Assembly: GCF_024170505.1 (NCBI RefSeq)
Contig: NZ_JALJYG010000008.1
Span: 1 to 64,000, forward strand
Reading direction: 5' to 3'
DNA from: Methanocalculus alkaliphilus
GTDB lineage: Archaea > Halobacteriota > Methanomicrobia > Methanomicrobiales > Methanocorpusculaceae
Length of the DNA: 64,000 nt
Shown here: positions 1,214 through 23,445 of the stretch, piece by piece
How positions within the stretch are numbered: the first letter of the stretch is position 1
How the letters are laid out: the number at the start of each line of letters is the position of its first letter
Program-made: the position numbers and the translations under genes
The notes under the pieces: generated by a model
Seen by the model: the letters and a program-made list of their open reading frames with translations, nothing else
The model's database searches: none
What the model was told of the DNA's origin: nothing

Positions 1214-1606
1214 TCAATACCCCCTCCTCCCCGGGATCACCCCTCTCACCCCGCCCTTCGGATCATCCATATCCCCGGCATACCGGGGGATCACATGCAG
1301 ATGCAGGTGCATCACGCTCTGGCCGGCCGCCGCCCCGACGTTCACCCCGATATTATACCCGTCGGGGGCATACTGCCCATCCAAGAGCCGACGGGCATCA
1401 TGGACGAGAGAGAGGAGGGCGGCCTGCTCGGTTGCGGTTGCCTCGAAGAACGAGGCCACGTGACGGAAGGGGATTGCGAGGAGGTGGCCGGGGCTGACCG
1501 GGTAGAGGTCGAACCGGGCGTAGGCGAGGTCGTTTGCGAGGAGGATGTCGGAGGGGGCGGGGGTGCAGAAGGGGCAGATCCTTCTATCATCGGTTAGATC
1601 GACCAT
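1214..1606 (-). CDS. HIT-family nucleotide hydrolase, intact copy 2
   Basis: The 130-residue protein has the full histidine triad near its C-terminus (QSVMHLHLHVIPRY) and an N-terminal zinc-type pair CPFC. It covers a full-length minimal HIT domain. HIT enzymes act on dinucleoside polyphosphates or AMP conjugates in the cytosol; the substrate here is unknown. The first 20 bases overlap the end of the upstream Schlafen/AlbA-type gene, so the two form an operon. It is closely similar to the HIT genes at 97-392 and 3295-3684, showing local duplication. The first residues (MVDLTDDRR) differ from those of the other two copies. Confidence 0.85.
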   Translation of the reverse strand: MVDLTDDRRICPFCTPAPSDILLANDLAYARFDLYPVSPGHLLAIPFRHVASFFEATATEQAALLSLVHDARRLLDGQYAPDGYNIGVNVGAAAGQSVMHLHLHVIPRYAGDMDDPKGGVRGVIPGRRGY

Positions 1607-6000: not shown

Positions 6001-6003
6001 ATT

Positions 6004-6201
6004 ATGACTGAAGGGCTTGAAATCAATCAAATTATTAAGGATGGTATTAAAGAGGAATCTCCAAATAAATATGTAGAAAAACTAATTCATGCTTCTATTC
6101 AGTATGAACTTGATATTTGGAATCGATATCCTCCACAGCGTGAGATAGAAAGTCAATATGATCAAATGGTAGATAGGATTTTGAAGGAGATGAAAGAATG
6201 A
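6004..6201 (+). CDS. Small helical protein of the interference operon, family not recognised
   Basis: The 65-residue product is charged and predicted mostly helical, with no signal peptide or cysteine. It starts 3 bases after the helicase stop and overlaps the SMC-like ATPase start by 4 bases (ATGA), so it is surely co-translated with them. It may be a connector subunit between the helicase and the ATPase; that is inference from position only. Base composition is as AT-rich as the rest of the operon. Confidence 0.7.
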   Translation: MTEGLEINQIIKDGIKEESPNKYVEKLIHASIQYELDIWNRYPPQREIESQYDQMVDRILKEMKE

Positions 6202-8183: not shown

Positions 8184-8631
8184 ACATTATAACGAACCAA
8201 GAGATTTAGCTTATAGTAAGAAAAATGCTCATTTTTTTAAAGTTGATGAGCCAGGATCGTGGACTCATAAAGGTTCAACCACAATTTTTGCAGGAAAAAA
8301 TCAAAAGGATCTATTTATTTTTGCAATGGCTTTAGGCAAAAATAGACAATCGAAACAAACCGAAGTTAAAGATCGTCAAGCAAATATTCCTGTAGTAGCC
8401 CTTAATGAAAGACAGAAATGGACGTTACTTTCAATTGCATTAGCTAATACTGATGACTTGTTATGCCTGAAAGATGAAAATCCACATTACAAAGAAGCTG
8501 AAAGCTACGCAGAAGAGGGTATTAATATATTAAAGGCTCATATAGAAAAATATGGTATTAATTACCCGAAATTTCTTGAAGCTGAGTTAAAAGATATACT
8601 TAAAAACTCTGATTCGACAGGTGATGTTTGA
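8173..8631 (+). CDS. 152-aa protein closing the interference operon, possibly a dnd-associated small subunit
   Basis: The gene overlaps the ATPase gene by 11 bases and ends 52 bases before the convergent dndA stop. The 152-residue soluble protein has no motif that I can name; it has a basic N-terminal half (FAGKNQKDLFIFAMALGKN) and a helical acidic C-terminal half. Size and position fit small proteins annotated as dnd system-associated, but I could not confirm homology. It most likely works with the PLD-helicase and the DndD-like ATPase encoded upstream. Confidence 0.65.
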   Translation: MTVKHYNEPRDLAYSKKNAHFFKVDEPGSWTHKGSTTIFAGKNQKDLFIFAMALGKNRQSKQTEVKDRQANIPVVALNERQKWTLLSIALANTDDLLCLKDENPHYKEAESYAEEGINILKAHIEKYGINYPKFLEAELKDILKNSDSTGDV

Positions 8632-8633
8632 AA

Positions 8634-8640
8634 TTTTTTT
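8634..8640 (+). terminator. T-tract terminator of the interference operon
   Basis: A run of seven T residues starts 2 bases after the stop of the 152-aa gene and is followed by more T-rich sequence in the 52-base gap between the two convergent operons. Archaeal transcription ends at such T-tracts without needing a hairpin. Confidence 0.5.
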
Positions 8641-8683
8641 CTTTAATTTTCATTAATTCTACTGATAATTAATTGATGAAATC

Positions 8684-9847
8684 TTATTCTAAATTTCTTA
8701 GTCTTTGCACGAATCCTCTAAACTTGTAAATAACGTGATATATAGCCTCCTCGGTCGTAAACCTCCCCAATCCAAACCGTATAGCAGAGTGAAGATACTC
8801 CTCCTCCCTGCCAATTGCCTGTAATACATACGATGCCTCAACCGATGTTGTCGAGCAGGCTGACCCCGTTGAAATTGCCACGTCATCTCTGAGCAAATGA
8901 ATCAGCGCTTTGCTCTCAATGCCAGGGAAACAGACGTTGAGATTATGAGGGAGCCTCTGTTCCGGATGGCCATTGAGAATAACTCCTCCACACTCATTCT
9001 GAAATGCTTCGAGCATCATGGTCGTCCATTTTTTATACCGCTCGGCCTCAGCTTTCATCTCCTTCTGGGCGATCTCAATAGCTTTCCCAAGTCCGACAAT
9101 GCCGGGAACATTATAGGTCCCGGATCGAATGCCCTTCTCGTGACCGCCACCAAACATCACTGGTGATATGTTCTTTTTTGGATTCAGACCTGTGATGTAC
9201 AGAGCCCCGATCCCTTTAGGGCCATAGATCTTATGTCCTGATAATGAAAGGAGATCGATCTTCATTGCTTTTACATCAATGGGGATGTGGCCGACCGCCT
9301 GGGCAGCATCGGTATGGAACCGGACACCATGCTTTTTGGCAATCTCTCCAATCTCCTGTAATGGTGCTATTGTTCCTATCTCATTATTTGCAGCCATTAT
9401 CGAGATGAGGATGGTTCGATCCGTAATGGCAGCCTCAATATCTGCGGGATTAACCATCCCATATTGGTCGACCGGAAGATAAGTAACGGACTTTCCCATC
9501 TTTTCAAGATGTTTGGCGGTATCGAGGACTGCTTTGTGTTCTGTTACACAGGTGATGATATGGTTGCCTTTTGCGGCTAACTTATCCGTAACCCCAAGAA
9601 GTGCAATATTATCAGATTCTGTTGCTCCGCTTGTAAAATAAATTTCATTTGGCTTTGCATTCAGTATCGATGCAACCTGCTTCCTTGCCTTCTCAACGGC
9701 TTCATAAGCCCTGGCTCCATACATATGATCGATACTGGATGCATTACCAAAATCATCCTTAAAATAAGGGAGCATTGCTTCAAGCACTCGGGGATCAACC
9801 GGGGTTGTTGCATGATGATCCATGTAAACTGGTCTTGTATTATTCAT
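8684..9847 (-). CDS. dndA: Cysteine desulfurase of the DNA phosphorothioation system
   Basis: The 387-residue class V aminotransferase-fold enzyme shows the PLP lysine in SGHKIYGPKG (Lys206), FHTDAAQAVGH for cofactor contacts, and the catalytic cysteine in STGSACSTTS (Cys331). It removes sulfur from cysteine as an enzyme persulfide and passes it to DndC. It is the last gene of dndBCDEA and overlaps the end of dndE by 8 bases. General IscS/NifS-type desulfurases look the same, so the assignment as DndA rests on its place in the operon. The order with dndA last is also the order named in the archaeal DndCDEA systems. Confidence 0.9.
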   Translation of the reverse strand: MNNTRPVYMDHHATTPVDPRVLEAMLPYFKDDFGNASSIDHMYGARAYEAVEKARKQVASILNAKPNEIYFTSGATESDNIALLGVTDKLAAKGNHIITCVTEHKAVLDTAKHLEKMGKSVTYLPVDQYGMVNPADIEAAITDRTILISIMAANNEIGTIAPLQEIGEIAKKHGVRFHTDAAQAVGHIPIDVKAMKIDLLSLSGHKIYGPKGIGALYITGLNPKKNISPVMFGGGHEKGIRSGTYNVPGIVGLGKAIEIAQKEMKAEAERYKKWTTMMLEAFQNECGGVILNGHPEQRLPHNLNVCFPGIESKALIHLLRDDVAISTGSACSTTSVEASYVLQAIGREEEYLHSAIRFGLGRFTTEEAIYHVIYKFRGFVQRLRNLE

Positions 9848-10253
9848 GAGATCTCTCCTCTGACAGCATACCGGACTTAATCCCTTCGGCCTGGTGTTTT
9901 AGCAGGATCTGAAAATCTCCAAGACCTTTAATCTGGGGATACATACCAAATACCCCTCTATTTAAATGAGCCCTGAGCTGATGGTAGAGATCCTTCTCTG
10001 GATCAAGTCCATCGTGAATACAACGCTCTTTGACAAGTGCAATGAAAAATGTATCCCATTCACCTGTCAGTGTGTAACGGTTCAACTCCTGGCCGCGTTC
10101 ATCGTAATCATTCGGATTAGGTACTGTTTGATCATTCAATGAATAGCAGATAGCAATCCTTGAAAGAATATTGGGGGTAAGGCCCGTTTTTCCCTTCAAC
10201 TGACTGAGCCGATAGGTGGCTTTTTCACTAATCCTGATTCGATTGAAGTTCAT
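9840..10253 (-). CDS. dndE: DNA sulfur modification protein DndE
   Basis: The 137-residue protein matches DndE in size, placement and in the conserved block ELNRYTLTGEWDTFF (about residues 55-69). DndE is a small, basic, helical protein that binds nicked double-stranded DNA as a multimer and works with DndC and DndD to insert sulfur. The N-terminal part (ISEKATYRLSQLKGKTGLTPNILSRIAICYS) resembles a ribbon-helix-helix-like start. Its ATG overlaps the dndD stop by 4 bases, and its end overlaps dndA. At 137 residues it is a little longer than minimal DndE proteins. Confidence 0.88.
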   Translation of the reverse strand: MNFNRIRISEKATYRLSQLKGKTGLTPNILSRIAICYSLNDQTVPNPNDYDERGQELNRYTLTGEWDTFFIALVKERCIHDGLDPEKDLYHQLRAHLNRGVFGMYPQIKGLGDFQILLKHQAEGIKSGMLSEERSHE

Positions 10254-12271
10254 ACTTCCACCTCGGACCAGAAGTACCCAGGAGATATGGATGTCATCCG
10301 ATCTTTCTTAGAATAATCAAGATGGTATGCACGAGAGATATATGGCTGGAGAGTACGGAAATACTCAAGATCTATCTCTGTATCGGTTGAAAAGATGATC
10401 ATCTGTTCTCCGGCATGTTGGAAGAAATCCATTACAAGATTCCCCCTGTGCTCACTATCCAGCCGGCCGAGGGGAGTATCAATAATAAATGGGAGCTCCC
10501 GGCTTGAGGTGAGTGTCAGGCCCCAGAGTAATGATACTGCAAAGATCTCTTTCTCTCCGGCCGAGAGTAGTTCTTTGGGAATAACCTGACCATCGTGATC
10601 ATAAAGGGTGATAGTATAATCCCCATCTATCACCAGATTGCGGACATAGTCATCCTTTCTAATTAACCGGTTAAAACACATCAGAATATTATCTGCAAGC
10701 TGTTTTACCTTCTGTTCCTGAAGCTCTGTTGCATAATCATCAAGAACACGAATAACCTTATGTGCAAGATCAAGTTTCTTGGAGTCGCTCTTGACACTTT
10801 GAATTTCCTCAAGGCTTTTCTCACGTTTTCTGTTCAGTTCATTCAACTGGAAGGTCAGTTCACGCATTGAGGTATCCAGTGTATTCAGCTTCTCTTCGAG
10901 TCCACCAAAGGATTTATTTAATTTATTAAGTTCCTGAATATAAGGGGCGATAATTTCATCATCGGGAGCTTTATTAATATTCCCGACTATTTTCTGGCGT
11001 TGATGAGTGAGCTTTTCCAACGTTTCGGATAATGTATTCATTTTTTGTGGGACCCGAGATACCGCTTCATCAATCCATTGCAGAAGCTGATGGTATTCTG
11101 CCTGAGATACCTGATGGATTAATTTCTTCCCGATATGATCGTCACCTGGCTCTAGCTGGTTTTTTATGAGCGTGACAATTTTCTCTCTGATCTTCTCTAT
11201 TTGCTCTGATGGTACAGAAATATCAGACCAGAATTCAGATGACTGAATTGCTTTGTCAAAATCACTCATATTTGCCTGAATAAGCTCTTTTAAACGCTTT
11301 TGAGTCTGTATTGCATCCTCTTTTGTGATATTATCCTTCAGGATTTTACAATACTGTGGGGTGATTGAGAATGGAAATAGCCCTGCACATAAATCCCGAA
11401 GCTCATTTTCAACCTTCTCTATCTCATGTTCCAGCCGTATCTTTTCACCCTTCCACTCCTCACGTTTCCGGGCATATCCTCCCCCTTCACCAGCAAGAAT
11501 CTGTTCCTGTCGCTCTATCTCAGCCTTGATCTGATCACTCTGGCTTTTAATCTTGGCACGTTCCTGAAAAACATCATCCAACAAATGTTCTTTATCTGAG
11601 ATCTGCTTCATGATATCTTCAAGATTTTGATCAATCGAAGTTACTTTGGATCCTTTGAGGTGACGACTTGAGAATATCCCAAGATCAGCTCGGAGCCTGT
11701 CAACGATGTCAAGACCCAGAAGAGACTTGAAAGAATCTCTAAGATAGATATTCTCTGCATTATCCTCAACCAGGTTCTGAATCTTTTCGCCATCGAAGAG
11801 AAATAATCGTGCAAATCGGGGAGGTATTAATTCATTCAACAACTCCTGCCATTGATCTCTCTCCAAATCTGAGAGGACTTCACCATCATGTTGTATCGTC
11901 AGCTTCTCTGAAAATTTTGGATCAAAGAACCACTCACGCCGTACCTCATAGACTTTTTTCACCCCGGCATGGGTGAATTCAAAGATAATTTCTATAATTG
12001 GTCTGATAGTATTGGAGGTATTTCGGCTGCGAGGAACCATCTGCCGAACATATTTTTCATATTTTGTATTAGACATCTTGTTCCCGGGTGCGTACTGACC
12101 ATAGAGGCAGAGAAGAATTGAATCAAATAGTGTTGTTTTTCCTGCACCATTTCTGCCGCCAATGAGGATAATAGGTTTTGGGGTGTTTCCATTGGTCTTT
12201 GGCCTGAAATCCAGGACATTTCTACCTTGGAAGATCCGAACATTTTCCAGAGTTAATGAATGTAGCAACAT
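10250..12271 (-). CDS. dndD: DNA sulfur modification ATPase DndD
   Basis: The SMC/Rad50-like ATPase has Walker A GGRNGAGKTT near residue 38-47, a long coiled coil, LLSAGEKEIFAVSLLWGL as ABC signature, and Walker B/D-loop FIIDTPLGRLDSEHR near the C-terminus. DndD supplies ATPase activity that probably opens or nicks DNA during phosphorothioation. I start it at 12271 (MLLHSLTLENV), because GAGGG lies 5 bases before this ATG and the position gives a 10-base gap after dndC; an upstream open frame overlaps dndC by 77 bases and is unlikely to be used. The length, 673 residues, is usual for DndD. Confidence 0.9.
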   Translation of the reverse strand: MLLHSLTLENVRIFQGRNVLDFRPKTNGNTPKPIILIGGRNGAGKTTLFDSILLCLYGQYAPGNKMSNTKYEKYVRQMVPRSRNTSNTIRPIIEIIFEFTHAGVKKVYEVRREWFFDPKFSEKLTIQHDGEVLSDLERDQWQELLNELIPPRFARLFLFDGEKIQNLVEDNAENIYLRDSFKSLLGLDIVDRLRADLGIFSSRHLKGSKVTSIDQNLEDIMKQISDKEHLLDDVFQERAKIKSQSDQIKAEIERQEQILAGEGGGYARKREEWKGEKIRLEHEIEKVENELRDLCAGLFPFSITPQYCKILKDNITKEDAIQTQKRLKELIQANMSDFDKAIQSSEFWSDISVPSEQIEKIREKIVTLIKNQLEPGDDHIGKKLIHQVSQAEYHQLLQWIDEAVSRVPQKMNTLSETLEKLTHQRQKIVGNINKAPDDEIIAPYIQELNKLNKSFGGLEEKLNTLDTSMRELTFQLNELNRKREKSLEEIQSVKSDSKKLDLAHKVIRVLDDYATELQEQKVKQLADNILMCFNRLIRKDDYVRNLVIDGDYTITLYDHDGQVIPKELLSAGEKEIFAVSLLWGLTLTSSRELPFIIDTPLGRLDSEHRGNLVMDFFQHAGEQMIIFSTDTEIDLEYFRTLQPYISRAYHLDYSKKDRMTSISPGYFWSEVEV

Positions 12272-12281
12272 AAAAAGACCC

Positions 12282-13745
12282 TCAAATATACCGAAGATTA
12301 CGCCTTCTGGTATCAATACCATCTGGCTTGGCAATATGTTCCCGTATTTCTTCCTCACTCAACCAATCTTCGGACAGCACATCCCCAATCCGGTTATACA
12401 CAGATGAACGACGGGACATCCCCTGCATCTGATGCTCAACATCCAGAAGTTTTGTTACAAGACGAAGTGGAAGATTGTGTTTCTCACATATTTCATTCAG
12501 GAGATCCTGTTCAGCCTGAGAGAATGAGCCCAGGTCATCCTTCGTAAAGTTCAGGCTCTCTCCCATAACTTCCTCGTATATTTGTGCTAAGGAATCGTTC
12601 CAGTCACTTCGCTGTGCCATCCATATTCGGCGGATTTCCTCGATTTCTTCGGGCTGAATTAATTGAACGTCCGGATATGGTCCCTTTTCCTGAACGTCTT
12701 TCTGAATTTCAAGTAATTTTCTGAGGAGATATTTACAATAATCAAATGTATATGGACCTCTGATGATATCCCAGTCATCACCTTTCTTCATGACTTTTAC
12801 TTTACCATTCATCCGACGATAATCACGGTAGAGATGCTTCTTTTCAGGTATCTGGGTTTCGGCAAGCTCATTGCGTAATTCAAGTAAAGGCTCAAGCCAA
12901 TCCTCTCCACTCTCAATAAGGGCCTCCATGCTCCGGTCTCGCTGGACAACGGTGCACACCCAGCATCCAAACCGGCTATTCCCACATGATCCCGTCTGGG
13001 TATCTACCACAAGCGGACATTCGCCATCCTGAGCATTTTTGTAGAGAGCCAACAGGTCCCGATTATTATTGCCCCAGGGGGAGGGTTTCTGGAGGAGATA
13101 CGTCCAGACATCATCAACCGAAAAATCCTCAATCGGAGTATATACATAGGACTGAGCAAAACGTGAGTGGTGAGAAAGCTTTGATCCCTCGATCTTGTAG
13201 AGGTTCATGACCTGATCACGGGTGTTACTCTCCCCTTTCCTGACACCGAGGATCATGACTACTTCCCCATACTTCGTGACACTCTCAAGAATAAATCGAT
13301 CAGCAGTCCGAATCTTGAGTCGCTCAGTGCACCAGCGAAACTGTGTACTGGGTGCAGGATACCCTTTGCCAATCAGATTGACCCAGAAAGAGTCGATGAT
13401 TCGTGGAGTTAACTGAAATGCCTTAAATGGCAATTTCTTTTCTGTCGCTGTTTGATTGATTCTCTCAAGCGTTGTTGTAATATAATCAACGATGACAGGT
13501 GTTTCAACGAGGGTATCCGAGGAGATAACAAAAACCGGCTTTTGTCGCTTTGATTCAGGCAATTCGCCAAGTGCATACCAGACGAGTTGCAAAGCGGTTG
13601 TTGAGTCTTTTCCACCACTGTATCCGATAACCCACGGCCGGTTATCACTCAGGTATACTTCCTGAATCTCACGGTAATGTTCAGCCAGATTTTTCTTATC
13701 AAAAACTGAGACCGTTTTTCCATTCAGGGTCTGCTGGGGGGTCAT
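12282..13745 (-). CDS. dndC: Phosphorothioation PAPS-reductase-like protein DndC
   Basis: The 487-residue protein carries the PP-loop SGGKDS (43-48) of the PAPS-reductase/ATP-pyrophosphatase fold and conserved cysteines: one in WCTERLK near 139 and a cluster GSCGNSRFGCWVC near 262-274, which can bind a 4Fe-4S centre. DndC activates DNA phosphate with ATP and receives sulfur from DndA. The helical C-terminal domain is also typical. Its ATG overlaps the dndB stop by 4 bases, and dndD follows 10 bases downstream. Confidence 0.93.
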   Translation of the reverse strand: MTPQQTLNGKTVSVFDKKNLAEHYREIQEVYLSDNRPWVIGYSGGKDSTTALQLVWYALGELPESKRQKPVFVISSDTLVETPVIVDYITTTLERINQTATEKKLPFKAFQLTPRIIDSFWVNLIGKGYPAPSTQFRWCTERLKIRTADRFILESVTKYGEVVMILGVRKGESNTRDQVMNLYKIEGSKLSHHSRFAQSYVYTPIEDFSVDDVWTYLLQKPSPWGNNNRDLLALYKNAQDGECPLVVDTQTGSCGNSRFGCWVCTVVQRDRSMEALIESGEDWLEPLLELRNELAETQIPEKKHLYRDYRRMNGKVKVMKKGDDWDIIRGPYTFDYCKYLLRKLLEIQKDVQEKGPYPDVQLIQPEEIEEIRRIWMAQRSDWNDSLAQIYEEVMGESLNFTKDDLGSFSQAEQDLLNEICEKHNLPLRLVTKLLDVEHQMQGMSRRSSVYNRIGDVLSEDWLSEEEIREHIAKPDGIDTRRRNLRYI

Positions 13746-14881
13746 AATGCCCTTCCTTTCATGACATTCATAAATTTAATCTCATTCTCTTCTTCATCCT
13801 GAGAGAGGGGGACATTCATTTTTAGCTTAAGATAATTGCTGGTTAAAGCAAGGTTCATCTGACTTTTGGATATCCTTCCGTTATTCATTGCTCTGCCTTC
13901 CCAATCGGGGTTCGAACGTGACCAGTCAATCTGATGGAGTCCGGTTAATTGCTCTCTCCAGTTATTCGGATATTCTGATACGAGTGCATGTCCAAGAATA
14001 CCAAGTGAATGAAGGGCAATTCCATGTGCATGAACAAAGTCATTTCGAAGTGAACTGGCTGAGACATCCCTTCTGATCAATAGTTGCCAATCTGGGATAT
14101 TTTCTGCGACAACACTCCAGTATTCAGATGCAAGCTTTTCATCATCTTTTGTGATCTTTTTACTTTTTTCCGTCTTTCCAAGAAGAGCAGCTGTTGCCTG
14201 ATAAATACTGGAGAGAGTGAACATTTTTCTGGATCTATTCGAGATTGTTGTTTTTTCTAACTCGGTCAGATCTTTGAACAGTGGAATTGAATCTGCTATG
14301 ACTCTTATCGACTGCGCGAATTCATCTCTTGCATCATAGAGGATTGATATAGATTTTGTGGGTCGGATCGCATGACGATTAAGATCTGAAAACATCTGCT
14401 GACTTCGTTGTAATCCTGCATCCACAAAGAAAACAACGGATAATGTTTCATTCCCCAGCTCAGGACGCTCTTTTAACGCCTCTTCAATTGCAGCCCGGCG
14501 GTGCTGGCCATCATTAATGAGGACTCTGGCATCCATGGGAAAAACAATTTTACCTACTTTGCTATTTGGATTATCCGGGTCGGCAGGAATGAATTTAACC
14601 GGGGCTTCACTGATTGATGCTGCTATTGATGAGAATATATAATCATTTGGATTATTGATGATATAACGCGCAATCTCGGGGATCCTGGCCCTATTTATAA
14701 CTCGTTGCGAACGAAACTGAACAGGAACTTCTGACTCATTAAACCGGAAGATAGCCGGAATAAGTTTAAGCTGGACCATAGCAGAATAGTATTCTCTTCC
14801 GGCTTGAATACCACGGATTGCTGGAAAAGAATATACAGCAGTGTTGAGATCATCAATCTCATCAAAAGCCACAGATTTCAT
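13742..14881 (-). CDS. dndB: DGQHR-domain protein DndB, putative repressor of the dnd operon
   Basis: The 379-residue protein contains the hallmark DGQHR (residues 124-128) in the context INDGQHRRAAIEEAL, and the expected following FSDLNRHA region. DndB in bacteria represses its own operon and tunes the level of DNA sulfur. It is the first gene of dndBCDEA. A cluster of three related half-sites lies immediately upstream, at 14895-14953, overlapping the likely TATA box, which fits autoregulation. The archaeal operons described as DndCDEA lack an obligatory dndB, so its presence here is of interest. Confidence 0.92.
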   Translation of the reverse strand: MKSVAFDEIDDLNTAVYSFPAIRGIQAGREYYSAMVQLKLIPAIFRFNESEVPVQFRSQRVINRARIPEIARYIINNPNDYIFSSIAASISEAPVKFIPADPDNPNSKVGKIVFPMDARVLINDGQHRRAAIEEALKERPELGNETLSVVFFVDAGLQRSQQMFSDLNRHAIRPTKSISILYDARDEFAQSIRVIADSIPLFKDLTELEKTTISNRSRKMFTLSSIYQATAALLGKTEKSKKITKDDEKLASEYWSVVAENIPDWQLLIRRDVSASSLRNDFVHAHGIALHSLGILGHALVSEYPNNWREQLTGLHQIDWSRSNPDWEGRAMNNGRISKSQMNLALTSNYLKLKMNVPLSQDEEENEIKFMNVMKGRAL

Positions 14882-15848: not shown

Positions 15849-16243
15849 GTCATAAACCTCAGAGTGATCTCAACCATGAAGTAATCAAATGAAGAGTTAT
15901 TGGGTTTGATCAGGATAAGGCTTGGGTTTTAAAACAATGCTATCGTTGGATGATTAAGAAATCCAAAGCTCAAAAGAAAATATCTCACTCATAAAAACGT
16001 TGTCTAACATTACATGGGATGTATACAAATGGCCAAAAGTCCAAGATACCTATGGAAATGGTGAGCAATCCCCCCCAAAGACCATACCTCATACCTGACC
16101 GACGTTGACAGTTGACAATAAACAACATCCTTTCTTCCACCCTATCGTTCTCTTGGCAGAGCAGGTTCTCTTCTCGACTCCTCTCTTTTGATTTCGATTC
16201 CGTCAGGAAAAAGAAGCTAGTACTATATCAACGTATGATCTTT
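15849..16243. other. Gene-poor region between the HEAT-repeat gene and the duplication zone
   Basis: I see no credible gene from 15849 to 16243. The stretch is AT-rich at its left, with many short open frames broken by stops. From about 16134 it enters a sequence that is repeated at 17703-17852 (direct repeat A). The following 16244-16479 is a MITE-like insertion described separately. Confidence 0.6.
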
Positions 16244-16249
16244 CATCAT
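16134..16249. repeat. Direct repeat A, left part of copy 1 (interrupted by the MITE-like element)
   Basis: The block starting CCACCCTATCGTT and running through GGCAGAGCAGGTTCTCTTC to ATGATCTTTCATCAT matches 17703-17819 with scattered substitutions. Copy 1 resumes after the inserted element at about 16480-16516 with CATCATATCC...CATGGTATCCGGATTCATG, which continues the match to 17814-17852. The uninterrupted copy is therefore the ancestral arrangement. Confidence 0.75.
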
Positions 16250-16492: not shown

Positions 16493-16864
16493 TCACCCCC
16501 CATGGTATCCGGATTCATGAATGACGCACGGATGAAACCAGGGTATTTGTGCAGCAGCCCGCTGCACAAATTCAGGATCGGGCCATGCCTCTGCAAACGA
16601 GCGCATGTACTTCAGGTTTCGGGGAGAGAAACCCCGTACATCCGGGAACTCCTTTCTGAGATCGTCTGAGAGCCGGTCGATCACCTTTGATCCCCACCCC
16701 TCCTGCTCCTGCCTCTCCATGATCTCCCGTCCTATCTGCCAGTAGAGCAGGATGAGCTCCCGGTTCACCGAAAGAATCGCCCGGGTCTGTGCCTGCCGTA
16801 TCCGCACCTTCAGAGCCGCAAGAAACGTGGGATAATCCTCCGGGAGTGCATCACTCAAACCCAT
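16493..16864 (-). pseudogene. Truncated DUF1016 (YhcG-type) nuclease, N-terminal part only
   Basis: The first roughly 110 residues from MGLSDALPED are nearly identical to the intact gene at 19146-20174, covering the N-terminal helical domain (WQIGREIMERQ, GFSPRNLKYMRSFAEAWPDPEFVQ). After AQIPWFH the sequence runs into repeat A and ends at a chance stop (16493), so the whole PD-(D/E)XK nuclease domain is missing. A strong GGAGGGG site sits 7 bases before the ATG. It represents the decayed copy of a duplication of about 1 kb. Confidence 0.85.
16546..16570. repeat. 25-bp perfect hairpin in the truncated DUF1016 gene
   Basis: TTTGTGCAGC, a 5-base loop and GCTGCACAAA form a perfect 10-bp stem. 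The intact paralogue has a hairpin at the matching place (19856-19880) with a different stem sequence that still pairs fully. Confidence 0.8.
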
Positions 16865-17574
16865 ACACGCCCCTCCGCAGGCTCTCCCCGACCTCCCGGA
16901 TTTTCGATTCAAATCCAGGTATTGCCCCGTTCTCTGTTGTATTCCTTGCCCACATCGTCATCTTTCCAACCCTCTCTTATCACCGATAGGTATACTTCCT
17001 GGATAGGGAGAAAAGAGTACTCATTTGACATTATTGCTGTTCTCCCCGATCACCACATCACAGCCTTTAAGACACCCCATACCAATGGATCGCTTATGAG
17101 GACCGACGAAACGACCCTCACCAGCGCCACCAGCGTCTCCGGCGCTACCGGCGTTACCGGCGTCACCTTCCCCGTCCCGAAACAGTATATGAACCGGTTC
17201 TTCTCCGGAGGGAAGACCGTCTTTGTGAAACCGGCGACTGTCTTCAAGGAGCTGCGGCGGGGGATGCGGCTCGTCTTCTACCAGTCGCATGAAGATACCG
17301 GGTATGTGGGGAAGGGGCGATCAGGTGGATACTGATCGCACAAGACCCCCTCACCTTCTATGACACCTATGGCGATTCCGTCTTCCTCACACGGGATGAG
17401 ATGATCGCATATCTCGGGAACCAGGAGCGGTGGAAGGCCGTCCGGGTCAGGAAGGGGAGTGAGAGCCGGAAGCGAAACTGGATAGCACTGGAGCTTGAGG
17501 ATATCCGGAAATATGAAGTGTTGCGGAAACCTGAGCGGTTTGTGCCGGTCGGAGGACAGTATCTAAGGGATTGA
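16563..17574. repeat. Large direct duplication, copy 1 (decayed)
   Basis: This segment of about 1 kb is nearly identical to 19873-20935. It includes the N-terminal part of a DUF1016 nuclease gene, the divergent promoter region and a DUF365 gene. In this copy both genes are damaged: the nuclease is truncated at the left edge and the DUF365 gene is frameshifted. For most of its length the offset between the copies is a constant 3310 bases, changing only at the frameshift and at a simple-repeat expansion. Confidence 0.9.
17096..17574 (+). pseudogene. DUF365 family gene, frameshifted copy
   Basis: This copy matches the intact gene at 20406-20933 from MRTDETTL through FPVPKQYM and KPATVFKELRRGMRL. 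Around 17309-17318 it has one base fewer, so the frame shifts after YVGKG and stops at 17335. Beyond that the original frame is still readable to a stop at 17574 (RFVPVG.QYLRD), showing recent decay. It also lacks the Asn/Glu-rich insertion found in the intact copy, which indicates the shorter version is closer to the ancestor. Confidence 0.85.
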
Positions 17575-17628
17575 AATCAATAGAGTACTACAAGTGAGAC
17601 CAGAGACTCAGGGATTTAAAGACATTGA

Positions 17629-17700
17629 ATGAAGATCATGAATATCGTCTGCCCCGGCGACCCCCAATAGTTCCTCCCCTTTCAGCGGATGGAGGAAAAT
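17629..17700 (+). pseudogene. Remnant of a second TBP-paralogue gene
   Basis: From the ATG at 17629 the DNA matches the start of the TBP-like gene at 22930 (MKI.NIVC.GD, then the region coding PFQR.EE), but it has an early stop after 12 codons and the match ends at about 17700, where repeat A begins. It lies directly behind the decayed DUF365 gene, whereas in the intact locus two other genes lie between DUF365 and TBP. Confidence 0.75.
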
Positions 17701-17702
17701 CC

Positions 17703-17852
17703 CTTCCTCACCCTATCGTTGCATTGGCAGAGCAGGTTCTCTTCCCGGCTTCTCTCTTTTGATTTCGAATCCATCTGGAAAAAGAATCTGGTACTATATC
17801 AAAGTATGATCTTTCATCATATCCTTCTCCCCCATGGTATCCGGATTCATGT
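17703..17852. repeat. Direct repeat A, copy 2 (uninterrupted)
   Basis: It matches 16134-16249 plus 16480-16516 in the same order and direction, without the MITE-like insertion. It includes the shared tail CCATGGTATCCGGATTCATG, which is also the sequence fused to the truncated DUF1016 gene. Repeat A thus borders the decayed half of the duplication on both sides and may have served in recombination. No gene is visible in it. Confidence 0.75.
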
Positions 17853-17860
17853 CTGAGTTA

Positions 17861-18886
17861 TCAGATCTCATCCTCCAGCAGTTTTGCAATCTCTTCAGGC
17901 CCCGGCAGCTGGCCTTGAAGCTCAGAGGGGAGCTCACTTACAATCCTGTATGTAGCAACTCCGATAGGTGTTGTGGAAGACTGAAGGGCATATTCAACTA
18001 CAGTACGGTTCTTCTCCTTACACAGAATAATGCCTATGGAAGCATGTTCATTATTCTCACGTACCTGCTGGTCAAGAGCCGTCAGATAAAACTGCATCTT
18101 ACCTACAAATTCTGGCTGAAACTCACCGACTTTAAGTTCGACTGCAACAAGACAACAAAGCCTGCGGTGAAAGAGAAGAAGGTCAATAAAATACTCCTTA
18201 TCACCCACTTCAAGCCTGAACTGGCTGCCTAAAAAGGCAAAGACCCCGCCCATTGCACGAAGAAAATCTTCAATCCGGTTTATCAGTGCTCGTTCAAGTT
18301 CCCTTTCGGAATGTTCCTCTCCAAGTTCAAGAAAATCAAAAATGTAATCGTCTCTTAAAGCCAGTTTTGCCTGTGCCCTTATCTCCGGCGTAAGCTCCGT
18401 ATCAAAATTATTCTGACCGGAAAGCATCTTCTCATATGAATGGTTCTCTATCTGGTGAATCAAAACGTTCTTTGACCAGCCAAATTTCCGGGTCATTCGA
18501 ATATAGAATTCACGTTGCAGAGGATCTTTGCAGCGTGACATTATAACGATATTATGACTCCAGCTAATTTCTCCAACCAATGGCTGGATTTTTTCACTCG
18601 TGCAATACTCCAGGTAAAACTGGCGCATATACCATAGATTCTGAACCGAGAAGCCTTTTATACCCGGAAATTCGCGTTTTAGATCATCTGATAGTTGTTG
18701 GACTACAGATTTCCCATAGCCCTGTTCAATCTGTCTGCTGGCAATAATACTGCCAATATCCCAGTAAAGGCCGACAAGCTCTTTGTTAACGGCACGAAGT
18801 GCTGTATACTGTGCTTCCCTTAACCGGTCTTTTACCTTGGAAAGTAAGACATTGTATCCTTCCGGAAGGTCGGATGTATCCATCAT
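17861..18886 (-). CDS. DUF1016 (YhcG-type) PD-(D/E)XK nuclease-domain protein, divergent paralogue
   Basis: The 341-residue protein has the YhcG N-terminal helical domain (WDIGSIIASRQ, GFSVQNLWYMRQF) and a C-terminal PD-(D/E)XK fold with EYFIDLLLFHRRLCCLVAVELK (about 235-256) holding the catalytic D and ExK. YhcG/DUF1016 proteins bind or cut DNA and are common in accessory regions, often near restriction genes. It is clearly a separate lineage from the duplicated DUF1016 genes on either side. AGGGAG precedes the double ATG at 18886/18883. Base composition is more AT-rich than the neighbouring copies. Confidence 0.85.
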   Translation of the reverse strand: MMDTSDLPEGYNVLLSKVKDRLREAQYTALRAVNKELVGLYWDIGSIIASRQIEQGYGKSVVQQLSDDLKREFPGIKGFSVQNLWYMRQFYLEYCTSEKIQPLVGEISWSHNIVIMSRCKDPLQREFYIRMTRKFGWSKNVLIHQIENHSYEKMLSGQNNFDTELTPEIRAQAKLALRDDYIFDFLELGEEHSERELERALINRIEDFLRAMGGVFAFLGSQFRLEVGDKEYFIDLLLFHRRLCCLVAVELKVGEFQPEFVGKMQFYLTALDQQVRENNEHASIGIILCKEKNRTVVEYALQSSTTPIGVATYRIVSELPSELQGQLPGPEEIAKLLEDEI

Positions 18887-19145: not shown

Positions 19146-20174
19146 TCAGCCTTCCCTCCGTCCCAGCTCCTCTTCCAGTTCATCCACCGTCGGCAGTCTC
19201 CCCCGCAAATCCTCGGGAAGGTGAGTAGTCAGTTCATATCCGGCGACGCCAATCGGTTTCTCCATATCCCTGAGGGCATACTCAGCAATGATGCGGTTCT
19301 GTGACTTGCAGAGGATGATCCCAATGCTTGGGCTATCATCAGGGTGGCGGAGGAGATCATCAACAGCTGAGAGGTAGAAGTTCATCTTCCCGGCATACTC
19401 CGGGATGAACTCTCCAATTTTCAATTCGATCACCACGTATGACCGAAGTTTGAGATGGTAGAAGAGGAGATCAATAGAGAATTCTCTCCCTCCAATAGAG
19501 AGCCTGTACTGATTCCCGATGAACGCAAAACCTACCCCGAGCTCCAGAAGGAAATCGCGGATATGCTCGATCAACGCCCGCTCCAGCTCCCTCTCGGCTG
19601 CATCCTCCCCGATCCCGAGGAAATCAAAGATATAGGGATCTTTGAGTACCGATCGTGCAAGATCTGACTGAGGTGCAGGAAGTGCTGATGAAAAGTTCGT
19701 CACCGCCCGCCCCTCGCGTCTGATAAGCCCACTCTCGATCTGATGCACGAGAACGTTCCTTGACCACCCGTTCGCAATTGTTCTTTGGATATACCACTCC
19801 CTCGCCATCTGGTCTTTGACCTTGTCGAGTAAGGTGATCGCATGATACCATGTTATTTGTGCAAGCACCTCTTGCACAAATTCAGGATCGGGCCATGCCT
19901 CTGCAAACGAGCGCATGTACTTCAGGTTTCGGGGAGAGAAACCCCGTACCTCCGGAAACTCCTTTCTGAGATCGTCTGAGAGCCGGTCGATCACCTTTGA
20001 TCCCCACCCCTCCTGCTCCTGCCTCTCCATGATCTCCCGTCCTATCTGCCAGTAGAGCAGGATGAGCTCCCGGTTCACCGAAAGAATCGCCCGGGTCTGT
20101 GCCTGCCGTATCCGCACCTTCAGAGCCGCAAGAAACGTGGGATAATCCTCCGGGAGTGCATCACTCAAACCCAT
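19146..20174 (-). CDS. DUF1016 (YhcG-type) PD-(D/E)XK nuclease-domain protein, intact copy of the duplication
   Basis: From the ATG at 20174 (MGLSDALPEDYPTF, with GGAGGGG 7 bases before it) it gives 342 residues, the same length as the neighbouring paralogue. The N-terminal domain contains WQIGREIMERQ and GFSPRNLKYMRSFAEAW. The C-terminal nuclease fold shows EFSIDLLFYHLKLRSYVVIE with LK, carrying catalytic D and ExK. An in-frame ATG 16 codons upstream is possible but has no ribosome site. It is divergent from the DUF365 gene. The complete motifs suggest an active enzyme; the cellular role is unknown. Confidence 0.87.
   Translation of the reverse strand: MGLSDALPEDYPTFLAALKVRIRQAQTRAILSVNRELILLYWQIGREIMERQEQEGWGSKVIDRLSDDLRKEFPEVRGFSPRNLKYMRSFAEAWPDPEFVQEVLAQITWYHAITLLDKVKDQMAREWYIQRTIANGWSRNVLVHQIESGLIRREGRAVTNFSSALPAPQSDLARSVLKDPYIFDFLGIGEDAAERELERALIEHIRDFLLELGVGFAFIGNQYRLSIGGREFSIDLLFYHLKLRSYVVIELKIGEFIPEYAGKMNFYLSAVDDLLRHPDDSPSIGIILCKSQNRIIAEYALRDMEKPIGVAGYELTTHLPEDLRGRLPTVDELEEELGRREG
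19856..19880. repeat. 25-bp perfect hairpin in the intact DUF1016 gene
   Basis: TTTGTGCAAG, a 5-base loop and CTTGCACAAA form a perfect 10-bp stem. Compared with the copy at 16546-16570, the inner stem bases differ on both arms in a compensating way, so base pairing is kept although the encoded residues change from RAA to EVL. Confidence 0.8.
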
Positions 20175-20405
20175 ACACGCCCCTCCGCAGGCTCTCCCCG
20201 AACTCCCGGATTTTCGATTCAAATCCAGGTATTGCCCCGTTCTCTGTTGTATTCCTTGCCCACATCGTCATCTTTCCAACCCTCTCTTATCACCGATAGG
20301 TATACTTCCTGGATAGGGAGAAAAGAGTACTCATTTGACATTATTGCTGTTCTCCCCGATCACCACATCACAGCCTTTAAGACACCCCATACCAATGGAT
20401 CGCTT

Positions 20406-20933
20406 ATGAGGACCGACGAAACGACCCTCACCAGCGCCACCAGCGCCCCCGGCGCTACTGGCGTTACCGGCGTCACCTTCCCCGTCCCGAAACAGTATAT
20501 GCACCGGTTCTTCTCCGGGGGGAAGACCGTCTTTGTGAAACCGGCGACCGTCTTCAAGGAGCTGCGGCGGGGGATGCGGCTCGTCTTCTACCAGTCGCAC
20601 GAAGATACCGGGTATGTGGGGGAGGCGACGATCAGGCGGATACTGATCGCAGCAGATCCGCTCACCTTCTATGACACCTATGGCGACGCCGTCTTCCTCA
20701 CCAGGGATGAGATGATCGCGTATCTGGAGAACCAGGAGCGGTGGAAGGCCGTCCGGGTCAGGAAGGGGAAGGAAAATGAGAATGGAAGTGAGAATGAGAA
20801 TGTGAATGGGAGTGAGAATAAGAGCCGGAAGCGGGACTGGATGGCACTCGAGCTTGAGGATATCCGGGCGTATGGGGCGGTGCAGAAGCCGGAGCGGTTT
20901 GTGCCGGTCGGAGGACGGTATTTAAGGGAATAA
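20406..20933 (+). CDS. DUF365 family protein
   Basis: This archaeal protein of about 175 residues contains the conserved core FPVPKQYMHRFFSGGKTVFVKPATVFKEL, broken here into visible blocks VPKQYM, KTVFVKPA and FYQSHED, then RRILIAADPLTFYD and FLTRDEMIAYL. DUF365 proteins have a PUA/ASCH-like appearance, suggesting RNA or nucleic-acid binding; no activity is established to my knowledge. The N-terminal 20 residues are low complexity (TSATSAPGATGVTGV). A second simple repeat, rich in Glu and Asn, inserts into the C-terminal half at about residues 120-140. The ATG at 20406 is favoured over an earlier one, because the family domain begins shortly after it. Confidence 0.72.
   Translation: MRTDETTLTSATSAPGATGVTGVTFPVPKQYMHRFFSGGKTVFVKPATVFKELRRGMRLVFYQSHEDTGYVGEATIRRILIAADPLTFYDTYGDAVFLTRDEMIAYLENQERWKAVRVRKGKENENGSENENVNGSENKSRKRDWMALELEDIRAYGAVQKPERFVPVGGRYLRE
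20767..20824. repeat. GAAAATGAGAATG-type simple repeat in DUF365
   Basis: Irregular units of GAGAATG and GGAAGTG encode alternating Glu/Asn/Gly/Ser (ENENGSENENVNGSENK). The decayed copy has only a few bases here, so this block is an expansion of roughly 45 bases, in frame, within a surface loop. Confidence 0.75.
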
Positions 20934-21068: not shown

Positions 21069-22214
21069 ATGGAGAACCTGTACAGCATCAGAATTCAGGG
21101 GTACAAATCAATTCGGGATCTCACACTTGACATCAGGGCGATTACCATCCTGATTGGAGCAAACAGCTCCGGCAAGAGCAATATCCTGAGCATCTTCAAA
21201 CTACTCAATGCAATCGCCAAAGGAAGGCTCAAACTAGCCATGAGCAGGGGCGGTGGCGCATCCTCAACACTTCACTATGGATCGAAGCGAACAGGTGAGA
21301 TGGCCATAGAAGTCAAACTTGGACCTCACCAGTATCAGTGTGTACTTGCTCCTGCACAGGATGGGCATCTCATCTTCACTGAAGAAAGACCGGGGATTCA
21401 TCTGGATCTTCAGCCGTCATTTGTCAGGGATCAGGGGACCTCTGCTGGCGTTGAGGGGAAAGGCCGATCAAACTGGCATCGTTCAATTGATGCAGGCGGC
21501 AACTGGGAGAGTTCCCTCTCAAAACTGGCAGAAAAGGGAGATCCTGCATCAAGGCAGATCCTCAGGACCTTCAATGATCTCCGGGTATATCATTTCCAGG
21601 ATACATCAGATACTGCTGATGTGAAAGGGATACAGCAGATCAATGATAACCTCTACCTCCGGGAGGATGGAGGAAACCTGGCCCCTTTTCTCTATGCACT
21701 TTCCCATACACATCCCGATCATTATACGAGAATTGTTGAGACAATACAGCTTGTTATCCCGGGTTTCGATGACTTTACCCTTCGCCCAATGGTGGAAAAT
21801 ACCAATATGATGCGACTTGAATGGAGAGAGATCGACTCGGATTACCTATTTCTTGCGCATCAGCTATCGGATGGAACCCTCAGATTCATCTGCCTTGCAA
21901 CTCTTCTCCTCCAACCGGATCCACCTGATCTGATCATCATTGATGAGCCGGAACTTGGTCTCCATCCATCTGCCATCCAGGTTCTGGCAGCACTGATCGG
22001 GAGTGCATCACATCGGACACACGTGATTGTAGCAACACAATCAGCGATGCTTGTTGATCTTTTTGAACCAGAGGATGTTGTTGTTGTCGATCGGCTGCAA
22101 GGAGAAACAACCGCAAGAAGACTCAATCCAGAAGAACTGGAGTCATGGCTCTCAGAGTATTCACTGAGCGAACTCTGGGAGATGAACATCCTTGGCGGCA
22201 AACCCGTCTGGTGA
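21069..22214 (+). CDS. AAA family ATPase (RecF/OLD-like) of a two-gene defence-like pair
   Basis: The 381-residue ATPase has Walker A ILIGANSSGKSN (about 28-39), an ABC-type signature region LAHQLSDGTLRFICLATLL (about 261-279), and Walker B with D-loop IIIDEPELGLHPSAI (about 290-305), followed by VIVATQSAMLVDLF. There is no long coiled coil, which places it with AAA_21/AAA_15-type proteins. The DUF4276 gene starts 4 bases after its stop. ATPases of this type paired with a TOPRIM-like partner act as phage sensors in abortive-infection systems such as PARIS; the role here is inferred from that analogy. Confidence 0.82.
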   Translation: MENLYSIRIQGYKSIRDLTLDIRAITILIGANSSGKSNILSIFKLLNAIAKGRLKLAMSRGGGASSTLHYGSKRTGEMAIEVKLGPHQYQCVLAPAQDGHLIFTEERPGIHLDLQPSFVRDQGTSAGVEGKGRSNWHRSIDAGGNWESSLSKLAEKGDPASRQILRTFNDLRVYHFQDTSDTADVKGIQQINDNLYLREDGGNLAPFLYALSHTHPDHYTRIVETIQLVIPGFDDFTLRPMVENTNMMRLEWREIDSDYLFLAHQLSDGTLRFICLATLLLQPDPPDLIIIDEPELGLHPSAIQVLAALIGSASHRTHVIVATQSAMLVDLFEPEDVVVVDRLQGETTARRLNPEELESWLSEYSLSELWEMNILGGKPVW

Positions 22215-22218
22215 TTTG

Positions 22219-22896
22219 ATGATAAGGCTGAAGATCATAACCGAGGGTCAGACCGAAGAGTCTTTTGTACGATCCCTCCTTGCTCCTCATCTTGCAGGAC
22301 ATCAGATCATTGCAATTCCTATTACCATACCAACAGCAGTTGGAAAGAGGACTCACCGTGGAGGAATTGGAAGCTACACTCGTATGAGAAGATTAATTCT
22401 CGGATCTTTTGAACGGACTGGAGCATATATCACCACGATGATTGATCTTTACAAACTACCAGAGTCATTTCCGGGCATGCAGGAGGCTGCACCTATCACC
22501 GATCCTTATCAGCGGATTCAGTTGCTTGAGGAGGCTCTGCGTCTGGATATTGACAATCGTTTTTTCATCCCTTATATTCAGCTTTATGAATTTGAAACAC
22601 TCCTCTTCTCTGATATCGAGGGTATTGATGCGCATATGAGAGTCTACACCCGTTCCCGGCTCCGTGATCTCAGAAATATTCTGAGAGACTATCCTGGCGG
22701 ACCCGAATATATTAACGATGGGGAGATGACTGCCCCCTCAAAACGACTTTTAAAAGTCTATCCCTCCTACCGAAAAGTGCTCGATGGCAGTCAGATTGCA
22801 AAACGAATCAGCCTTGGTCCCATGCGGGAGAAGTGCCCGCATTTTAATTCCTGGATCTCCGGACTTGAAGAGCTCTCCAGAAGGCAACCTATCTGA
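22219..22896 (+). CDS. DUF4276 family protein, probable TOPRIM-like effector partner
   Basis: Starting at the ATG at 22219, 4 bases after the ATPase stop, the 225-residue protein begins with KIITEGQTEESFVRSLLAPHL, the DUF4276 N-terminal signature, where the glutamate of TEGQTE matches the first acidic residue of TOPRIM folds. Further blocks are TTMIDLYKLP (possible DxD-like metal site) and IQLYEFETLLFSD. Together with the ATPase it resembles two-gene ATPase + TOPRIM-type effector systems. The nuclease activity is inferred, not shown. Confidence 0.8.
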   Translation: MIRLKIITEGQTEESFVRSLLAPHLAGHQIIAIPITIPTAVGKRTHRGGIGSYTRMRRLILGSFERTGAYITTMIDLYKLPESFPGMQEAAPITDPYQRIQLLEEALRLDIDNRFFIPYIQLYEFETLLFSDIEGIDAHMRVYTRSRLRDLRNILRDYPGGPEYINDGEMTAPSKRLLKVYPSYRKVLDGSQIAKRISLGPMREKCPHFNSWISGLEELSRRQPI

Positions 22897-22929
22897 AGAA
22901 GAAAGACCAACACTCTCACCAGACCTCAG

Positions 22930-23445
22930 ATGAAGATCATCAATATCGTCTGCTCCGGCGACCTCCGTCAGGCCATCCCGTTTCAGCGGCTGGAGGAGCT
23001 CCCATCCGCATCATACCGCTATGACCCCGGAAAGTACCATGGGGCGTATATCCTCATCTCCACCGGCAAAGTCACCCTGTATAAAAGTGGGAAGTATATC
23101 ATCTATGGCCTGAAATCCCTCGATCAGATCAATGGAGCCTACCAGGAGTTCCTCGCCATCATCTCCCCGATCATCGACCCTGCAGCCGCCACGCCGCCGA
23201 AGGTCCAGAATATCGTCGGGATGGAGGACTTCGGGATGGCGATCAACCTCTCCCGGTTCGTCATCGCCGAGGGGATGGAGCGGGTCGAGTACGAACCCGA
23301 GCAGTTCCCGGGCGTCGTCTACCGGGGGGAGACGGGGACCGCCCTCCTCTTCTCATCAGGGAAGGTGATCTTCCCGGGATTTAAAGATCCGGAAACGATG
23401 GAGGCGTTTGCAGCAGAGCTGAAGGAGAGAACGAGCAGGATATGA
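22930..23445 (+). CDS. Divergent TATA-box-binding protein (TBP) paralogue
   Basis: The 171-residue protein has the two-fold TBP repeat. The first half holds NIVCSGDL, SYRYDPGKYHGAYI and STGKVTLYKSGKYIIYGLKS; the second has NIVGMEDFGMAINLSRF, VEYEPEQFPGVVYR and TALLFSSGKVIFPGFKD, close to standard archaeal TBP. The first half is strongly altered around the usual PEQFPG and SGK blocks. TBP recognises TATA boxes and recruits TFB and RNA polymerase. Being outside the core genome, next to defence genes, this copy may direct a special promoter set or act as a competitor. A broken second copy lies at 17629. Confidence 0.85.
   Translation: MKIINIVCSGDLRQAIPFQRLEELPSASYRYDPGKYHGAYILISTGKVTLYKSGKYIIYGLKSLDQINGAYQEFLAIISPIIDPAAATPPKVQNIVGMEDFGMAINLSRFVIAEGMERVEYEPEQFPGVVYRGETGTALLFSSGKVIFPGFKDPETMEAFAAELKERTSRI

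Follow-up and report, generated by a model that had tools for sequence, protein, structure and literature searches.

The gene at positions 22930-23445 of the window, by which we mean the whole stretch of 64,000 nucleotides of Methanocalculus alkaliphilus DNA analysed here, is a complete two-lobe TBP, the third and a divergent copy in its genome. Its family, which we name dTBP (defence-associated TBP), occurs within or next to loci of type I, IIG and III R-M, BREX and Dnd and, judged against the open-access literature, is a previously undescribed TBP family that travels in antiviral operons of methanogens and halophiles. These findings suggest that the defence genes of archaea bring with them a promoter-recognition factor of their own.

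Results

A third, divergent TBP in the Methanocalculus genome

An earlier note on this DNA, made from the sequence alone, had called the gene a TBP paralogue, a reading to be abandoned if it proved to be the only TBP of the genome. PF00352 covers both repeats, matching two stretches with 98.8 bits against a curated cut-off of 22.9, and both lobes exceed this cut-off in a six-frame search as well. The genome holds three TBP genes, the other two on other contigs (C6:14516-15037 and C2:138530-139024), and a single TFB gene. As the note had it, the second half of the protein is near normal and the first much changed: lobe 2 (residues ~90-165) is near canonical, with 46-49% identity to the two other host TBPs, whereas lobe 1 (residues ~1-83) is divergent, with 21-23%. 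Because the two canonical host TBPs share 57% (repeat 1) and 53% (repeat 2) identity with each other in the same halves, this asymmetry is a property of dTBP itself.

The nearest species copy, in M. chunghsingensis, is 98% identical. Comparison with the copies of genomes G002 (dN 0.095, dS 0.78) and G006 (dN 0.109, dS 0.73) gives dN/dS values of 0.12-0.15, which indicate purifying selection. We also considered whether dTBP is a recent duplicate of a host TBP and rejected this, since the host TBPs fall in another clade and lobe 1 has so little identity to them.

Phylogeny, signature residues and fold

In quick IQ-TREE searches that included 53 housekeeping TBPs and contained long branches, the full-length tree recovered a housekeeping group and a methanogen dTBP group (99 each), and a tree of lobe 2 alone placed 17 haloarchaeal and 15 methanogen dTBPs together (99). 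On these trees the methanogen and haloarchaeal dTBPs form a clade apart from housekeeping TBPs, and the lobe-1 signature can play no part in the result from lobe 2. The NCBIfam TBP subfamily models gave no separation of dTBP from housekeeping TBP.

Lobe-1 positions 36, 37, 40, 49 and 51 split the groups almost completely. Position 36, which we take from TBP-DNA structures to be the second kinking Phe, is Phe in all 117 housekeeping TBPs and Tyr in 15 of 15 methanogen and 14 of 17 haloarchaeal dTBPs. Leu at position 49 and Phe at position 51 are likewise invariant among the housekeeping proteins (117/117), as against Thr and Tyr, respectively, each in 31 of 32 dTBPs. Position 40 passes from V/I to Y and position 56 from V/I to Y or F, and P37H is present in the methanogen dTBPs and in roughly half of those from haloarchaea. 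The changes F36Y, P37H, V40Y, L49T and F51Y lie on the DNA-contacting face of lobe 1, in agreement with the note's remark that the protein is altered around its DNA-contacting blocks, and none is found in the 117 housekeeping TBPs.

Other residues are kept. TATA is read at its centre by Asn-Val pairs, and the dTBP of the window retains these (N5, V7, N94 and V96) together with F126 and F141 of lobe 2; N94, E122 and E124 are retained in 32 of 32 dTBPs. The four kinking Phe are not all present, the lobe-1 pair being Y36 and Y51; with both lobe-1 Phe replaced by Tyr the case for ordinary TATA reading is weaker, and homology is unaffected. Residue 51 corresponds to N.L5.1 (yeast F116), a near-universal Phe whose change, including to Tyr, is reported to affect TATA binding, and E122 and E124 to human E284 and E286 (C.L3.2 and C.L3.4), which are TFIIB/TFB contacts (PMC7221094).

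An AF2 model predicts the TBP saddle with a pLDDT of 94.6, although the alignment behind it contained other TBP sequences, so that the fold is partly given. Loss of the DNA-binding surface in a model was the other finding the note had named against its reading; the saddle superposes on DNA-bound TBPs (TM 0.92 and rmsd 1.5 with 4rod).

The island in the window and its decayed copies

The gene lies in a defence island, as had been proposed, made up of Dnd and Pbe genes assigned by PADLOC and two YhcG-type PDDEXK nucleases (Table 1). PbeA and PbeC belong to the half of archaeal Dnd-Pbe that carries out restriction. The stretch 3868-14881 is a Dnd-Pbe phosphorothioation defence locus in a methanogen host, in which PbeB, PbeD and DndE received no assignment; the BREX genes PglZ and BrxL/BrxC are absent from the window.

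The decayed second copy that the note had seen nearby consists of a piece at 17629-17703 (25 aa, 64%) and a frame-shifted piece at 17678-17803 (35% over 48 aa) by tblastn, and it has 81% DNA identity to 22921-22997. It follows a truncated YhcG gene and a decayed DUF365 gene, in that order, so that a unit of YhcG (-), DUF365 (+) and TBP (+) has been duplicated and one copy has decayed; the suggestion that the gene duplicates with its island is thus borne out for all three members. Genes for an AAA ATPase and a DUF4276 protein separate DUF365 from TBP in the intact unit. The open reading frame of DUF365 opens with TTG at 20232, the likely start being ATG at 20406. Its family has a solved relative (2KKU, found with the G040 protein as query), and our own DUF365 model had no reliable fold (pLDDT 35). 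Profile comparison of DUF365 with EVE gave no homology at the depth used, so that DUF365 is a conjectural reader of modified bases, the role suggested for both.

The protein encoded at window 1587-3047 (486 aa) weakly resembles Argonaute-type models (pAgo, E 1.9e-13). A gene like it in genome G039 (L180:2298-4190) adjoins an EVE-DUF365-DUF5655-TBP cassette.

Table 1. Features of the window around dTBP, by position.
Feature	Position	Strand	Basis
PbeA	3868-6000	+	PADLOC E 5.6e-232
PbeC	6198-8183	+	PADLOC E 1.7e-181
DndA/SspA	8753-9829	-	PADLOC
DndD	10250-12358	-	PADLOC
DndC	12282-13745	-	PADLOC
DndB	13742-14881	-	PADLOC
Further dTBP remnant	16138-16249	+	89% DNA repeat of 17709-17820 (decayed dTBP copy, 3' part)
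Truncated YhcG copy	16493-16912	-	91% to YhcG nuclease 2
Decayed DUF365 copy, frame-shifted	16922-17571	+	95% and 69% identity pieces to intact DUF365
Decayed dTBP copy: beginning of lobe 1, with frame shift and stops	17620-17820	+	tblastn, DNA identity
YhcG-type PDDEXK nuclease 1	17861-18886	-	PF06250 E 2.8e-60
YhcG-type PDDEXK nuclease 2 (DUF1016_N + YhcG_C), divergent from DUF365	19146-20222	-	PF06250 E 3.2e-65
DUF365 protein, upstream partner of dTBP	20232-20933	+	PF04033 E 8.1e-32
AAA_21 ATPase (HEC-01A-like), between DUF365 and dTBP	21069-22214	+	PF13304 E 3.3e-29; PADLOC HEC-01A E 5.7e-133
DUF4276 partner of AAA ATPase	22192-22896	+	PF14103 E 3.8e-49
dTBP	22930-23445	+	171 aa; PF00352 E 1.6e-28, tree, diagnostic residues, AF2 model

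Methanogen relatives and their cassette

Protein searches found dTBP orthologues in 16 of 232 Methanomicrobiales genomes, among them 4 of the 8 genomes of the genus, and DUF365 in 38 of the 232. The earlier note had proposed looking for TBP genes beside DUF365 in other archaea, and eight further genomes have them, with 23-103 nt between the end of DUF365 and TBP (G002, G006, G040, G070, G085, G095, G101 and G103). The note had nevertheless drawn the association too narrowly: it reaches beyond DUF365 and this island, the family being tied to type I, IIG and III R-M, BREX and Dnd in two archaeal classes. The DUF365-TBP pair usually lies behind a gene for an EVE protein, and at some loci also behind one for DUF5655 (PADLOC PDC-S18).

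The cassette stands beside BREX PglZ and BrxL in G003, G040 and G202, and also in a G087 fragment, beside BrxC and PglX in G070, beside BrxC in G103, and beside a type IIG enzyme with a PLD/SNF2 helicase in G095. Type III methyltransferase genes are neighbours in G101 and G106. Type I R-M genes adjoin the second dTBP copy of G040, whose other copy lies with BREX, and the dTBP of G200, there without the cassette; c19, c56 and c27 are called HsdM, HsdS and HsdR by similarity to Pfam-named Halobellus genes. At L170-L174 and L176 the EVE-(DUF5655)-DUF365-TBP cassette is divergent from the R-M or BREX genes, and methanogen dTBP genes are mostly divergent from the enzyme operon, not inside it. Related loci in G005 and G067 have EVE-DUF365 without dTBP and G056 has a dTBP remnant only, which shows that dTBP is dispensable. 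DUF365 and EVE appear to be regular accessories of BREX and R-M loci in archaea, in G005 and G067 even where TBP is missing.

Two further observations concern G040. Its L169:8930-17381 is a BREX-like operon of the order HD/dGTPase-PglZ-BrxL-EVE-DUF5655-DUF365-TBP, and L173:11452-14199, near a dTBP cassette, encodes a 915-aa protein with no Pfam or PADLOC match, of a family also present in L177.

The haloarchaeal branch and its linkage to R-M genes

The protein search, run in named genomes, found divergent haloarchaeal TBPs with the same lobe-1 signature. TBP is the last gene of an IIG-helicase-TBP operon in L045 and L212, with a stop/start overlap of ~4 nt, and in L211, where the genes abut rather than overlap. 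It follows a IIG gene in L046, L255, L256 and L257, and flanks type I R-M genes in L048 (HsdM, HsdS and HsdR confirmed by Pfam), L250 and L252. SNF2/SWI2 helicase genes are frequent among dTBP neighbours. The annotated order on Halorubrum lacusprofundi pHLAC01 is IIG-helicase-TBP, as in L045 and L212, and a plasmid search returned 76 records, haloarchaeal plasmids among them.

A dTBP family profile run over 394 genomes of the phylum brought in new members, eight of which served as an out-of-sample set. Seven of these eight have R-M genes no more than 6 kb away, as compared with 1 of 80 control loci of housekeeping TBPs (Fisher p ~1e-8), with the limits that flanks are short at some control loci and that near relatives are non-independent. 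For the eighth, L253, a different tool (PADLOC), used post hoc, places type II methyltransferase-like genes ~2.7 kb away.

As a check of viral origin we searched a viral contig collection, in which one of 7 TBP loci has a type IIG gene. In this locus, L243 (an IMG/VR contig of 17 kb), the gene behind the type IIG enzyme is a dTBP interrupted by a stop; it may be a misassigned contig or a mobile element. Two type I R-M loci (L048:3536-10543 and L215:8988-10212) have two divergent TBPs, the first of the pair far more diverged; these might form a heteromeric or antagonistic pair.

A family member in Halobacterium NRC-1

All signature residues are present in a Halobacterium NRC-1 TBP (pNRC100 111987-112532, carried on pNRC100 and pNRC200). 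It ends a DNA methyltransferase-helicase-TBP operon with 4-nt overlaps. Both partners have counterparts in L211: the helicase shares 80% identity with the L211 helicase, and the methyltransferase matches the L211 type IIG protein. By gene order the TBP is tbpC, a name that the record does not give. The three other full-length NRC-1 plasmid TBPs have a canonical lobe 1, with no annotated R-M genes immediately beside them. The delta-tbpC strain is viable and shows no apparent phenotype in normal growth, and deletion of tbpD changed 413 genes (PMC2121645). Elsewhere on pNRC100, L274:10045-10347 encodes a 100-aa TBP, tbpA by gene order, in which a canonical TBP start and end are joined, and 3 kb away a helicase-related fragment lies among IS elements (L274:13405-14532).

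Discussion

On balance, we think it probable, if only by a little, that dTBP is an alternative TBP dedicated to DNA-modification-based defence loci, where it would control the linked genes together with the host TFB. Lobe 2 would bind TFB as an ordinary TBP does, and the Tyr-rich lobe 1 would recognise a downstream TATA half-site unlike the usual one, so that dTBP could direct or limit transcription from linked defence promoters and its own promoter. In a new host, a cassette that brings its own promoter-recognition factor could perhaps delay or gate restriction. This regulatory role fits best with the invariant TFB contacts, the single host TFB, a lobe 1 that is altered but still aromatic, and the linkage to many unrelated enzymes. 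The last of these, as in G040 with its BREX-linked and type I-linked copies, favours a role in control that all of these loci could share. We are evenly divided on the broader proposition that operon-embedded dTBPs and host TFB amount to a separate promoter-recognition system for R-M, BREX and phosphorothioation loci, an archaeal counterpart of R-M controller (C) proteins and of BrxR, made from a basal factor of transcription.

A search for a promoter motif common to dTBP-linked operons, upstream of methanogen EVE cassettes and of haloarchaeal R-M or TBP genes, found no obvious one, which leaves the regulatory reading without its cis element. In the window, dTBP is <3 kb from the YhcG nucleases and ~8 kb from the Dnd genes, a distance that counts against their control by dTBP. 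L255 and L256, alone, have a block of ~75 nt in common; it precedes the IIG gene, and in it TGAGAGAT and ATCTCTCA enclose a TATA-like CTTATAAC. With two close loci, the block is a possible control element or may be just the edge of the cassette.

The 4-nt overlap with enzyme genes counts against a regulator in that it is equally expected of a structural subunit, and so does the dispensability of dTBP at related loci. We regard it as possible, though rather doubtful, that dTBP would act as a structural or targeting subunit, a reader of the minor groove or of DNA bends. Its task would be to bring in or position the linked enzyme (nuclease, methyltransferase or SNF2-type translocase) where DNA is invading or being transcribed, much as has been proposed for TBP-fold components in conflict systems of bacteria. 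The overlaps with R-M enzyme genes, with the translational coupling that they presumably entail, would suit such a part, as would the frequent SNF2/SWI2 helicase neighbours; Mot1, a Swi2/Snf2 ATPase, acts on TBP (PMC4565979), TBP genes are reported in the TOTE and TALON conflict systems, which are bacterial precedents (PMC12458937), and TBP-like domains are reported in RNase LS toxins (PMC3710099). However, a single subunit would have to suit the unrelated enzymes of type I, IIG, III, BREX and Dnd systems, the TFB-contact glutamates are invariant although a subunit needs no TFB, and the methanogen gene mostly points away from the enzyme operon.

The earlier note had offered redirection of transcription to island promoters and a block of host or viral promoters as two possibilities. 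As a decoy or dominant-negative TBP, the protein would block or redirect the promoters of host or virus upon infection; with its DNA-binding face kept but altered and its TFB patch kept, it could take TFB out of use by titration or sit on TATA boxes. Control of island promoters is the better fit, given the invariance of the residues that contact TFB and an arrangement in which the gene shares a transcript with defence genes or is divergent from them. The linkage is moreover with modification-based systems and not with abortive-infection genes, and we consider a decoy improbable; the lack of an apparent phenotype in NRC-1 delta-tbpC speaks neither for nor against it. Patchy spread in the order and the genus, decayed copies and presence on haloarchaeal plasmids would also be expected of a passenger, a spare TBP riding mobile islands without defence function. 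We disfavour this most strongly of all and give it very little weight, in view of the specific linkage of the out-of-sample members, the conserved DUF365-TBP spacing, diagnostic residues fixed across two classes, purifying selection and the overlaps with enzyme genes.

Several known systems invite comparison. Like BrxR/WYL proteins, dTBP would represent one regulator family across BREX, type I and other defence systems, and no BrxR homologues were found in 222 archaeal genomes (PMC9122601). BrxR/WYL and C proteins are, however, bacterial wHTH-WYL (or HTH) repressors or activators, whereas dTBP has a basal-factor fold and a putative regulatory function. In vertebrate TBPL1, likewise a paralogue of TBP, the aromatic at N.L5.1 has become Trp, and the protein is thought to recognise other promoters (PMC7221094); dTBP differs in its Tyr at this position, its further lobe-1 changes, its independent origin and its operon linkage. 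In TOTE/TALON systems (TPR, OB, TBP, Effector), too, TBP belongs to a conflict operon of prokaryotes (PMC12458937), but the partners of dTBP are, unlike theirs, EVE, DUF365, DUF5655 and R-M/BREX genes. Membership of the window gene in TOTE was rejected, as Pfam and PADLOC scans found no TPR or OB/CSD among the larger neighbouring genes. The island of the window carries DndABCD and PbeA/C of archaeal Dnd-Pbe, to which dTBP is not confined, and the accounts of Dnd-Pbe that we consulted make no mention of a TBP. Nor did we find in the open-access literature, subscription papers being outside its scope, a description of an archaeal TBP paralogue tied to restriction or BREX operons.

Why some archaea have many TBPs has been a standing question since the Halobacterium NRC-1 genome. 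TbpA-F of that organism and TBP1-3 of Methanosarcina are likewise extra TBP genes beside a housekeeping TBP. Our results split TBP paralogues into canonical ones and a family of defence-operon cargo that can be recognised by a short lobe-1 signature; if this is true, part of the TBP multiplicity of haloarchaea and methanogens is defence cargo. The signature predicts which TBP paralogues, NRC-1 tbpC for example, are worth testing for control or function of linked R-M genes. Should the regulatory reading be right, dTBP would represent a new form of defence control, in which a mobile cassette brings its own general transcription factor and not a conventional repressor or activator.
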